DNA from: Cetobacterium somerae
GTDB taxonomy: Bacteria; Fusobacteriota; Fusobacteriia; Fusobacteriales; Fusobacteriaceae
Assembly: GCF_022430525.1 (NCBI RefSeq)
Contig: NZ_CP092520.1
Span: 372,001 to 436,000, forward strand
DNA length: 64,000 nucleotides
Reading direction: 5' to 3'
Shown here in pieces: positions 1,283 through 62,435 of this stretch. Within the stretch, counting starts at the first letter, position 1; each line of letters begins with the position of its first letter. The position numbers were made by a program, and so were the translations under genes. The notes beneath the pieces are model-generated. The model was not told where the DNA came from. It made no database searches and was given only the letters and a program-made list of their open reading frames with translations.

Positions 1283-2313
1283 CTGACATTATCTCCTCTT
1301 GTTAGTATTGGCTGAAAACCAGCTTCTAAAATGCTATTTTCAATCTTTAGTTTCTCTTCTGCTGACTCTTTACCTAAAAAGACCTTTCCATTGTATAAAG
1401 CATATTTTTTTCTGCATTCCATTGGAGAAAGATTTGGCATAATTACATTAGCTCCTGCTTTAAATCCTTTCTCTCTTCCCTTAGGATCTATTGTTCCCAA
1501 AGCAGTTGTTGCTGGTAATAATACATCTGGTAAAAGAAGCCTTATTATTGCAAGTAAAGTAATTGTATCGTAAGCAGTTCCTCCATTTTCATTTTTTAAA
1601 GGAGTATCTTCATGGGGAATAAATGGTCCAATGCCTACCATATGCGGTTTAAGTTTTTTTAAAAAAATTAAATCTTTAGCATAGTCTATTAGTTTTAACC
1701 CTGGTAATCCTATTAAAAATCCACTTCCCACTTGATATCCAATTTCTTTAAGAGATTCTAAACATTTTTTTCTATTATCTAAAGACATATTTGGATGAAG
1801 CTCTTTATAAAGTTTCTCATTTACTGTTTCATGTCTCAATAAATATCTATCTGCTCCTGCTTCATATAATCTTTTAAAAGATTCTTCTCCTCTTTCTCCA
1901 AGAGAAAGAGTAATAGCTATGTCTGAGTATTTACCTTTTAAAGTTTTTATTATACTTTCTAAAAGCTCATCAGAAAAATAACTATCTTCTCCACCTTGAA
2001 AAACAAAGGTTCTATATCCTAATGAATAACCTCTATAACAACACTCTAAAATTTCTTCTTTAGATAATCTATATCTATTAGCTTTTTTATTAGAAGCTCT
2101 AATACCACAATAAAAACAATCACATTTGCATATATTAGAAATTTCTATTAATCCTCTAAAAAAAACAGTATTTCCATAATATTGTTTTCTTACTTCATAT
2201 GCTTTATCTATTAAATAATCTCTATCTTCTTCTGTTAGATTAGTAAGTAACACTTCTAACTCTTCCTGTGATAAATCATTTTCTATAGATAATTTATCTA
2301 TTAAATACCTCAT
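1267..2313 (-). CDS. hydE: [FeFe]-hydrogenase H-cluster maturase HydE
   Basis: Radical-SAM maturase that works with HydG and HydF on the dithiolate bridge of the hydrogenase active site. 348 residues, the usual length. The radical-SAM motif is C62-x3-C66-x2-C69 in the context ICKCDCFYCGIR, which is typical of HydE rather than BioB. Start ATG 2313 has GGAGGTG upstream. It is first in a hydE-hydG unit with its own promoter at 2344-2373. hydF is not in this window. Confidence 0.95.
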   Translation of the reverse strand: MRYLIDKLSIENDLSQEELEVLLTNLTEEDRDYLIDKAYEVRKQYYGNTVFFRGLIEISNICKCDCFYCGIRASNKKANRYRLSKEEILECCYRGYSLGYRTFVFQGGEDSYFSDELLESIIKTLKGKYSDIAITLSLGERGEESFKRLYEAGADRYLLRHETVNEKLYKELHPNMSLDNRKKCLESLKEIGYQVGSGFLIGLPGLKLIDYAKDLIFLKKLKPHMVGIGPFIPHEDTPLKNENGGTAYDTITLLAIIRLLLPDVLLPATTALGTIDPKGREKGFKAGANVIMPNLSPMECRKKYALYNGKVFLGKESAEEKLKIENSILEAGFQPILTRGDNVRWKRK

Positions 2314-2388: not shown

Positions 2389-3369
2389 TTATAATAATGG
2401 AATATTTTTAGCTTTACACTCTTCTATTACTTCTTGTGGCCATAAAGAAGCCTGAACTTCACCAATATGTAGTTTATCTAAGAAAAACAGACATAATCTT
2501 GACTGCCCGATTCCGCCACCTATTGTGTACGGTAACTCGCCTGCTAAAAGTTTTTTATGAAACTCTAACTCTTTTCTTCTCTCTGCTCCTGCTATCTCTA
2601 ACTGTTTAGCTAACGATTCCTCTGATACACGAATTCCCATTGACGATAACTCCAAACCTATTTTTAATGGTTCATAATATACAATTATATCTCCATTTAA
2701 ATCCCAATCATCGTAATCTGGTGCTCTTCCATCATGTTTCTCTCCTGATTCTAAAACTTTTCCTATTTCACTTATAAATATTGCTCCATATCTTCTTGCA
2801 TGTTCATGTTCTCTCTCTTTTGGAGTTAATTCTGGATAAAGTTTTTCTAACTCTTGAGATGTTATAAATGTTATCTCTTCAGGTAATTTCTTTGAAAGTT
2901 GAGGGTAAATATTTCTAATATAACTTTCTGTATCTTTTAATGAACTATATATTTTTTTTACAGTTTCTTGTAAAGTTTCAGTTGTTCTATCATCCTTTTC
3001 TAAAACTTTTTCCCAGTCCCATTGATCTACATAATAAGAATGAATTGGACTTAAATCTTCATCTCTTCTGATTGCGTTCATATCTGTATAAAGACCTTTT
3101 CCAGAGTCAAAACCATATTTATGAAGAGCCATTCTTTTCCATTTTGCTAAAGAGTGAACTATTACTGCTTCTTGTTTACACTTTGTATCAAAAGCTACTG
3201 CTCTTTCGATACCATTTAAATCATCATTTAAACCACTTTCAGGTGTTACAAATAAAGGCGCTGAAACTCTTGTTAAATCAAGTTTTTTAGCTAAATCTCT
3301 TTCAAAGAAATCCTTTACTTCTTTAATTGCAATCTCTGTTTCCATGATATCTAACTTTGTCTTATACAT
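2389..3369 (-). CDS. asnA: Aspartate--ammonia ligase (asparagine synthetase A)
   Basis: Makes asparagine from aspartate, ammonia and ATP in the cytoplasm. 326 residues against about 330 for E. coli AsnA, with recognisable motifs along the length (for example [12 protein letters not shown] near the C-terminus). The start is ATG 3369, chosen for the GGAGGT just upstream. An in-frame ATG at 3420 is rejected because it lies in the loop of the upstream terminator hairpin. Expression appears controlled by the Asn-rich leader at 3511-3648 and the terminator at 3403-3441. Its own promoter (3692-3720) makes it monocistronic or nearly so. Confidence 0.97.
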
Positions 3370-3402
3370 AATACTACCTCCAATTTTTTTATAAAAATAA
3401 AA

Positions 3403-3441
3403 AACTCTTAACATCTCCATTAGCGGAAATAGTTAAGAGTT
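3403..3441 (-). terminator. Attenuator (intrinsic terminator) in the asnA leader
   Basis: On the minus strand a 10-bp perfect stem (AACTCTTAAC / GTTAAGAGTT) is extended by a 6-bp inner helix (ATTTCC / GGAGAT, one G-U) across a single bulged T, then followed by TTTTTTATTTTT. It lies between the leader-peptide stop (3511) and the asnA ribosome binding site (about 3375), so asnA can only be expressed by read-through. The segment GTTTAAAGT at about 3502-3494 could pair imperfectly with the 5' arm as an antiterminator. That pairing is inference. Confidence 0.88.
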
Positions 3442-3510
3442 CTAATTTAATATTATATAATACACCTACTTAAAGATGCACCTAAATAAATTTACTTTAA
3501 ACAAATAAAT

Positions 3511-3648
3511 CTACCTAATTAAATTTAAATTCTTTTTTATTTCGAGATAACGGAAATTATTCATCACAAATTTCAATAAATTATTATTGTTATTATTGTT
3601 ATTATTATTATTACAATTATAATTATTATTATTGAAATTTATAGACAT
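3511..3648 (-). CDS. Asparagine-rich leader peptide of asnA
   Basis: A 45-codon ORF from ATG 3648 to TAG 3513-3511, with GAGGAGGAAG as ribosome binding site. 21 of 45 residues are Asn, including a run of 11 (codons 13-23) and a run of 4 (codons 6-9), mostly AAT with some AAC. It sits between a strong promoter and the asnA terminator. By analogy with his, trp and ilv leader peptides, ribosome stalling at Asn codons when Asn-tRNA is scarce would favour antitermination. The coding signals are seen directly; the mechanism is inferred. Confidence 0.88.
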   Translation of the reverse strand: MSINFNNNNYNCNNNNNNNNNNNLLKFVMNNFRYLEIKKNLNLIR

Positions 3649-3691
3649 AACTTCCTCCTCTTTTTAAAAATTTATTTTTATTATTGGACTA

Positions 3692-3720
3692 ATAATAAAA
3701 CTTTTTTGTAAAATTGTCAA
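3692..3720 (-). promoter_or_regulatory. Promoter of the asnA leader
   Basis: Minus strand: perfect -35 TTGACA (3720-3715), 17-base spacer, -10 TATTAT (3697-3692). This predicts a transcript start near 3685, about 37 bases before the leader-peptide ATG. It begins immediately after the stop of the upstream HAD gene. Confidence 0.85.
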
Positions 3721-3727
3721 GTTTTTT

Positions 3728-4444
3728 TTATAAAATTTCTACATCTGCTGAAACTTTATAGATAACATCTTTTCTTTCTACAAATATTTCAGTTTTATTT
3801 TTTAAATTTTCTTCTGTTTTTATTTTTAATAATAACTCTCTTGATGGATTTATAGCTCTAGGATGCCCCACAAGATTAAGCATACTATAATCACCATTAG
3901 TATCTCCATATGCGTAACTTTCTGATAAATCAATATCATATTTTTCACAAAAATTATTTATTGCTATCATTTTATTTTTCGAATCCCACATTGGAGAAAT
4001 ATCTCCTGAAAGTTTTCCATCTTCAAAATGATATATTGATCCACAATAATCATCTGCTCCCCACTTTTTAGCCATTCTTGAAACTAAAAAATCTGGGCTT
4101 CCAGAAATAAAAATTACTTTATGTCCTTGTTCCTTATGCCATTTTATCATATCTCTTGTAAATTTATATACTCTATTTCCTTTTAATTCTAATACTTGAT
4201 CTGAAATAAAATCATTGTATTGAAGAGATAATCCTTTTATAGCATCAACATATGTTGTTGTTATTTCTTCTAGATATTTATCATAGTCTCCTACTCTTTC
4301 ATCCCATTTTTTAAAAGCATCCTTTACCTTTAATTCATATTCTCTAATATCAAGTAATTCGTACTTTATAAGTTTCTTAAAATGCTCTGTTAATAGTGAG
4401 TTTCTATAAATTGTTCCATCAATATCAAAAAATGCTGCTTTCAT
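3728..4444 (-). CDS. HAD-superfamily phosphatase, subfamily IB-like
   Basis: Cytoplasmic haloacid-dehalogenase-fold hydrolase of the phosphoserine-phosphatase-like subfamily, 238 residues. Motif I FDIDGT (residues 6-11) carries the nucleophile and acid/base Asp pair, motif II is FISGSP, and motif III/IV is YGDTNGDYSM. A helical cap lies between motifs I and II. It is about 30 bases downstream of the purine nucleoside phosphorylase gene in the same direction, so probably co-transcribed. The substrate cannot be read from the sequence. Confidence 0.85.
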   Translation of the reverse strand: MKAAFFDIDGTIYRNSLLTEHFKKLIKYELLDIREYELKVKDAFKKWDERVGDYDKYLEEITTTYVDAIKGLSLQYNDFISDQVLELKGNRVYKFTRDMIKWHKEQGHKVIFISGSPDFLVSRMAKKWGADDYCGSIYHFEDGKLSGDISPMWDSKNKMIAINNFCEKYDIDLSESYAYGDTNGDYSMLNLVGHPRAINPSRELLLKIKTEENLKNKTEIFVERKDVIYKVSADVEIL

Positions 4445-62214: not shown

Positions 62215-62243
62215 TTGACTTTAAACAATATATGGAGTATATT
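62215..62243 (+). promoter_or_regulatory. Promoter of the cobalamin riboswitch RNA
   Basis: -35 TTGACT (62215-62220), 17-base spacer, -10 TATATT (62238-62243). The predicted start is near 62250, just before the riboswitch. Confidence 0.8.
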
Positions 62244-62254
62244 CATATTAATGT

Positions 62255-62435
62255 TAAATAATATAACATGACACTTAGATAAGGAAATGAGGTTTGATTC
62301 CTCTACGGCCCCGCCACTGTAATTTGGACGAAAGTATTTTATACCACTGGATTTATTTCTGGGAAGGTTTACGAGTAGAATGAAAAGAGTCAGGATATTT
62401 ATCTTTAGTGGATTATCTTCGAGGGAGGAACTAAA
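62255..62435 (+). ncRNA. Cobalamin (B12) riboswitch
   Basis: Conserved core seen: GCCACTGTA (62313-62321) preceded by GGCCCC, a CTGGGAAGGT segment (62360-62369), and the B12 box AGTCAGGATAT (62388-62398). A GAGGGAGGA ribosome-binding-site-like segment follows the aptamer and could kiss the CCTC of an internal loop, as in translation-controlling cobalamin riboswitches. Behind it is only a 9-codon ORF. Confidence 0.9.

Follow-up and report, generated by a model that had tools for sequence, protein, structure and literature searches.

A candidate asparagine-specific leader-peptide attenuator ahead of asnA in Cetobacterium somerae and other Fusobacteriota

In Cetobacterium somerae the asnA gene, which encodes aspartate-ammonia ligase, is preceded by a short open reading frame (ORF) that is unusually rich in asparagine (Asn) codons and by an intrinsic terminator. 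The locus lies on the minus strand of a 64,000-nucleotide stretch of contig NZ_CP092520.1 (positions 372,001 to 436,000; 'the window', in which all coordinates below are given unless another locus is named). Comparative sequence analysis and folding models point to asparagine-specific, ribosome-mediated transcription attenuation of asnA, a reading to which we assign a probability of about 0.88. Attenuators of this type are known for the his, trp, leu, ilv, thr and phe operons of Proteobacteria. The asnA leader resembles these in its layout, a short ORF in which codons for the product amino acid occur in a run, followed by mutually exclusive antiterminator and terminator structures and then by the biosynthetic gene, but it differs in that it is proposed to sense asparagine, is found in Fusobacteriota and matches no Rfam leader family. 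In a sample of 98 Fusobacteriota genomes, 78 were found to carry asnA, and when the upstream DNA of all 80 asnA copies was screened a leader with an Asn run was seen ahead of 36, spread over seven genera of Fusobacteriaceae and one outgroup family (g29). The features of the locus, in the order promoter-like site, leader ORF, intrinsic terminator and asnA, are as follows.

3720-3692, minus strand: promoter-like site TTGACA-17-TATTAT, 11 of 12 letters as in the consensus
3659-3654, minus strand: Shine-Dalgarno sequence AGGAGG of the leader ORF, nearly invariant among 10 relatives of the genus
3648 (ATG) to 3511 (TAG), minus strand: leader ORF of 45 codons, 21 of them Asn, kept in 10/10 genus members with full upstream sequence
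3612-3580, minus strand: run of 11 consecutive Asn codons, the proposed sensor and the only (AAY)6 site of the genome
3552-3655, minus strand: hairpin P1, which closes the Asn run and in which part of the ribosome-binding site of the leader is paired (GGAAGTTAT with ATAATTTCC)
3543-3518, minus strand: antiterminator 5' strand GAAATAAAAAAGAATTTAAATTTAAT, predicted by folding, within the leader ORF just ahead of its stop
3451-3426, minus strand: antiterminator 3' strand, predicted by folding, overlapping the 5' arm of the terminator
3459-3482, minus strand: small hairpin within the antiterminator loop, from folding
3442-3403, minus strand: intrinsic terminator hairpin (-19.0 kcal/mol), with a T tract at 3404-3399
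2389-3369, minus strand: asnA, with its ATG at 3369 (PF03590, 356 bits; TIGR00669 equivalog, 333 bits, over the cut-off)

An original prediction, made from the letters of the window, had named the promoter, the 45-codon ORF (21 Asn codons, 11 in a row, behind a strong ribosome-binding site) and the terminator before asnA, and each of these was found where it had been placed. The leader peptide reads MSINFNNNNYNCNNNNNNNNNNNLLKFVMNNFRYLEIKKNLNLIR (45 amino acids). Every defining feature of an attenuator that can be read from sequence is present: a translated-looking ORF with a ribosome-binding site lies between promoter and gene, its codons are enriched for the amino acid that asnA produces (21/45), an intrinsic terminator separates the ORF from the gene and, as a prediction, formation of the antiterminator depends on the position of the ribosome (28/31 modelled leaders), such that the element would be expected to work like the classical amino-acid attenuators. 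The ribosome-mediated attenuation that had been proposed for asnA is now supported by the conservation of the leader, by synonymous third-position variation within the Asn run, by counts of paired positions and by folding around a positioned ribosome.

The sequence of events that we infer, comprising ribosome stalling, termination and a response to asparagine, would begin when RNA polymerase initiates from the promoter (3720-3692) and a ribosome starts on the leader ORF. AsnRS (asnS) is encoded in the genome, so charged tRNA-Asn can report asparagine. When Asn-tRNA is scarce, the ribosome would stall on the Asn run, leaving 3543-3518 free to pair with 3451-3426; because this pairing is proposed to engage the 5' arm of the terminator, the terminator could not form and asnA would be transcribed. 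When Asn-tRNA is ample, the ribosome would reach the stop at 3511 and cover 3543-3518, the terminator at 3442-3403 would form and transcription would end before asnA. If this is correct, ribosome-mediated attenuation can sense asparagine in addition to the amino acids already known for it, and its range extends to Fusobacteriota.

RNA architectures and the position of the ribosome

The leader RNA of C. somerae is far more stable than dinucleotide shuffles of itself (z -7.3), and an intrinsic terminator was found downstream of the ORF in 31/31 modelled leaders. Folding models divide these leaders into two architectures, of which the first (type A) is that of Cetobacterium, with the same topology in genus g11. 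In type A, the long P1 hairpin closes the Asn run, in that ATAATTTCC, located 3' of the run, pairs with the leader ribosome-binding site; 95% of cells are paired, against 39-53% when slid, and there is little covariation. The antiterminator is formed by the 3' end of the ORF (3543-3518) and 3451-3426, which includes the terminator 5' arm, with 90% of cells paired against 26-53% when slid and three pairs showing double changes. The terminator itself is 95% paired, has four pairs with double changes and shows covariation exceeding that of all 500 shuffles. Free folding gives a closely similar bracket pattern in L001, L059, L060, L062, L066, L068, L069 and L080. In all clear type A cases the leader stop falls inside the antiterminator strand or within about 15 nt of it, even where a one-base deletion has changed the frame (L057), and a terminating ribosome would thus overlap that strand (only partly so in L068). 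The sequences of the g11 leader (L044) are unrelated to those of Cetobacterium, yet here too the terminator 5' arm finds its partner at the 3' end of the ORF; in g2 (L063) the antiterminator partner is less clear. Compared with the proteobacterial attenuators, type A is predicted to be distinct in that the terminating ribosome itself masks the antiterminator strand. That the ribosome at the leader stop masks this strand had been foreseen, and this part of the original prediction holds, but the strand is the 3' end of the ORF. The prediction had placed it at GTTTAAAGT (3502-3494), a stretch that is missing in most relatives and is not the one picked when RNA is folded around a positioned ribosome.

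The second architecture (type B) is predicted for Fusobacterium g4 and g5, with a similar arrangement in g13 and g14. Its short ORF ends in ...NNNNN-MSGFxL or NNNNN-MRGF. Segment 1 (GGGATTTG or a variant), located after the last Asn codon and before the stop, pairs with segment 2 (CAAATCC); segment 2 can also pair with segment 3 (GGTACAAATC with GATTTGTACC), and segment 3 with the 5' arm and loop of the terminator (TACCCGA with TCGGGTA). The terminator in g4 and g5 is 98% paired, with four pairs showing double changes, and for the pairing of segment 3 with the terminator 93% of cells are paired against 19-45% when slid. A ribosome on the Asn run would leave segment 1 free, and the 1:2 and 3:terminator pairings would therefore form and leave asnA switched on; a ribosome at the stop would cover segment 1, so that the 2:3 pairing and the terminator would form and asnA would be off. 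The models thus suggest that in Fusobacterium and the other type B genera the same Asn sensor drives a different, multi-segment RNA switch towards the same outcome. Type B occurs in Fusobacterium itself, so the system can be tested in a group of medical interest.

The dependence on ribosome position was modelled by placing a ribosome on each codon, folding the RNA downstream of it as far as the end of that loop which caps the terminator, and scoring capture of the terminator 5' arm by upstream sequence. Across the 31 leaders the median capture probability was 0.58 for a ribosome on the first Asn codon, 0.60 on the last Asn codon and 0.18 at the stop. Capture fell by more than 0.1 between the first Asn codon and the stop in 28/31 leaders, and in 0/31 was there a rise of that size. 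The mean swing was 0.45 in type A and 0.23 in type B, against 0.09 and 0.03, respectively, when spacers were shuffled. Codon-by-codon profiles of nine leaders indicate that capture is maintained until roughly the last Asn codon and disappears over the stretch from that codon to the stop. All parts of an attenuator, the conservation of those parts and a predicted switch with ribosome position can thus be read from these sequences.

Several points weigh against attenuation as proposed here. The support comes from sequence comparison and folding models, and the ribosome model assumes an edge 10 nt past the A-site codon. The terminators have good pairing support and the antiterminators moderate support: covariation in the latter is modest, some antiterminator pairs fail in L060, L068 and L080, and the covariation score for the type B pairing of segment 3 with the terminator is no better than that of column shuffles. 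Shuffle tests on single leaders are weak, with 5-20% of shuffles often reaching the observed value, and the leaders are related to one another, so they are not independent. Capture is weak in the type B leaders of g14 (0.15-0.2 in 4/5), and no swing was seen in L034, L036 and L037. Finally, the model run without a ribosome predicts antitermination (median 0.55), the opposite of the ribosome-free state in trp.

The strong structure of the leader RNA and the conservation of its long P1 hairpin would also be expected if a ligand-binding riboswitch or a protein-binding RNA, for instance a sensor of free asparagine, controlled the terminator and the ORF were incidental. We regard this as very improbable: between genera it is the run of Asn codons that is conserved and the RNA architecture that is not, both the type A switching strand and type B segment 1 sit inside the ORF beside its stop, and no Rfam amino-acid leader or riboswitch reaches its gathering cut-off at the asnA leader.

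The Asn codon run and its distribution

A whole-genome pattern search found (AAY)6 at one site in the 2,973,411-base genome, and that site is the asnA leader ORF. The Asn blocks of the 31 leaders contain 245 AAT and 33 AAC codons, with no AAA and no AAG, and among single-step changes from AAT 33 were at codon position 3 (all AAC) against six at positions 1 and 2 together. The share of AAC in these blocks (12%) is similar to that in eight neighbouring genes (12/121). Such a pattern is not expected of a decaying microsatellite, since the departures from AAT are nearly all synonymous AAC, with neither AAA nor AAG. Other members of the phylum do have AAT-rich repeats outside any leader context, and the Asn run might accordingly be read as a mere ATT-type microsatellite in an AT-rich intergenic region, with an accidental ORF and an unrelated terminator. 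That this run is the only one of its kind in the Cetobacterium genome, that its interruptions are mostly synonymous rather than random, that its start codon and ribosome-binding site are conserved and that it recurs at asnA even across genera with otherwise unrelated RNA around it make this explanation highly implausible. Among 20 other poly-AAY regions no convincing leader was found besides L181, which is the displaced asnA leader of genome G018 itself; the remainder were mostly microsatellites, pieces of long proteins or runs lacking a start codon. At L167 (G054, near contig position 787027) eight AAT codons lie 24 bases before the ATG of a gene resembling those for periplasmic amino-acid-binding proteins; there is no in-frame start codon, and the run is probably a microsatellite. 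In the Cetobacterium genome nothing leader-like with a His run was found among the CAY4 sites examined, and no Asn leader was seen ahead of asnS.

The comparison of asnA upstream regions across Fusobacteriota, which had been put forward as a check on the proposal, revealed that leader ORF, Asn run and terminator are kept in many relatives, the terminator with double changes in some of its pairs. The leader precedes all asnA copies in Cetobacterium (g1; one is interrupted by a contig end), 1/2 in g2, 6/12 in Fusobacterium g4, 9/9 in g5, 1/3 in g11 and 6/6 in g14 (one truncated), and it is also present in g13. It was absent from the asnA upstream regions screened in g3, g6 and the f4 family (Leptotrichiaceae), and from about 70 loci taken from outside the phylum. 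The leaders are 30-49 codons long and within the genus have INFNNN and LLKF stretches in common, which, together with the good ribosome-binding site, could be taken to mean that they encode a small functional protein made with asnA whose dose is merely set by the terminator; this is scarcely credible for ORFs of such length, in which the C terminus is altered by a frameshift (L001 vs L057), the shared flanks double as the complementary RNA strands of P1 and other genera have entirely different peptides around the Asn run.

Taken with the T-boxes described below, this distribution makes it reasonably likely that attenuation by an Asn leader is a main control of asnA in Fusobacteriaceae, that at least two non-homologous RNA switches have come to use the same sensor, whether independently or through complete rewiring, and that some genera (g13 and g14) sense tRNA-Asn twice per genome, by a T-box on asnS and a translating ribosome on asnA. 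The phylum would then offer a natural comparison, with one sensor, the Asn-codon run, retained across a change of RNA switch.

A few individual loci depart from the usual arrangement. Two genomes have two asnA copies each, every copy with its own Asn leader and terminator (L058 and L050 in G034; L061 and L064 in G031). In the last 80 bases ahead of asnA at L065 (G056) the leader breaks off just past the Asn run, with the terminator and the segments downstream absent as though they had been deleted; this shortened leader looks like either a natural bypass or an assembly error. At L181 (G018) and L026 the leader and terminator are intact and lie about 900 bases away from asnA, possibly owing to an insertion between leader and gene.

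T-boxes, related leaders and other features

Control of asnA by a T-box had been named as the expected arrangement in Firmicutes. A T-box was indeed found about 100 nt ahead of asnA in 13 of 20 loci examined among those from outside Fusobacteriota, but the contrast is incomplete, as Fusobacteriota also have T-boxes, on asnS and asnB. Like the asnA leader, a T-box (RF00230) with an Asn specifier controls a terminator and senses uncharged tRNA-Asn; it differs in binding the tRNA directly and in having no ORF. RF00230 had no match in the window, none at E 5 in 3360-3740 and none in the Cetobacterium genome at the threshold used. Genomes of g8, which are without asnA, have tandem T-boxes before an asnB-like gene and another before asnS, and in g13 and g14 a T-box precedes asnS and the leader switch precedes asnA. 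The loci concerned, in their own coordinates, are listed here.

L189 (G043, g8), 196-712, 794-2374 and 2420-2651: two tandem T-boxes, an asnB-like glutamine-dependent asparagine synthetase and another T-box before asnS
L187 (G054), 156-329: T-box upstream of asnS, in a genus whose asnA has an Asn leader
L188 (G053), 708-884: T-box upstream of asnS, likewise in a genus whose asnA has an Asn leader

The T-box specifier was read as AAC in the printed alignments (GAAGAACACC). By sequence, G054 and G053 each hold two different putative tRNA-Asn sensors in one genome. If both are functional as proposed, a single regulatory task is divided between T-box and leader peptide, not just across the phylum but also inside individual genomes.

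Leader-peptide control of new amino acids or in new phyla has been found by comparison before, for hisS/hisZ in bacilli, which have His-codon leaders (PMC2965389), and for cysS in Rhodobacterales, with the Cys leader uORFC-8-2 (PMC8632094). Unlike the asnA leader, these sense His and Cys and control tRNA synthetases, and an asparagine leader is not mentioned in the main text of either paper. The open literature searched, coverage of which was partial, with one likely earlier source lying outside it, gave no prior account of a leader for asparagine or of such leaders in Fusobacteria.

Upstream of asnA lies a gene for a HAD-family hydrolase (ending at 3728), and downstream lies hydE. The promoter-like site is flanked by the hydrolase gene and the leader, which suggests that asnA is transcribed from a promoter of its own; a -35 element TTGAC(A/T) was also seen in several relatives. 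Two further RNA elements were noted: a T-box with a UGG-like specifier ahead of a TrpE-like gene (L190 in G034, 1392-1663, minus strand), and a cobalamin riboswitch (RF00174, 67.8 bits) at 62238-62417 on the plus strand of the window.
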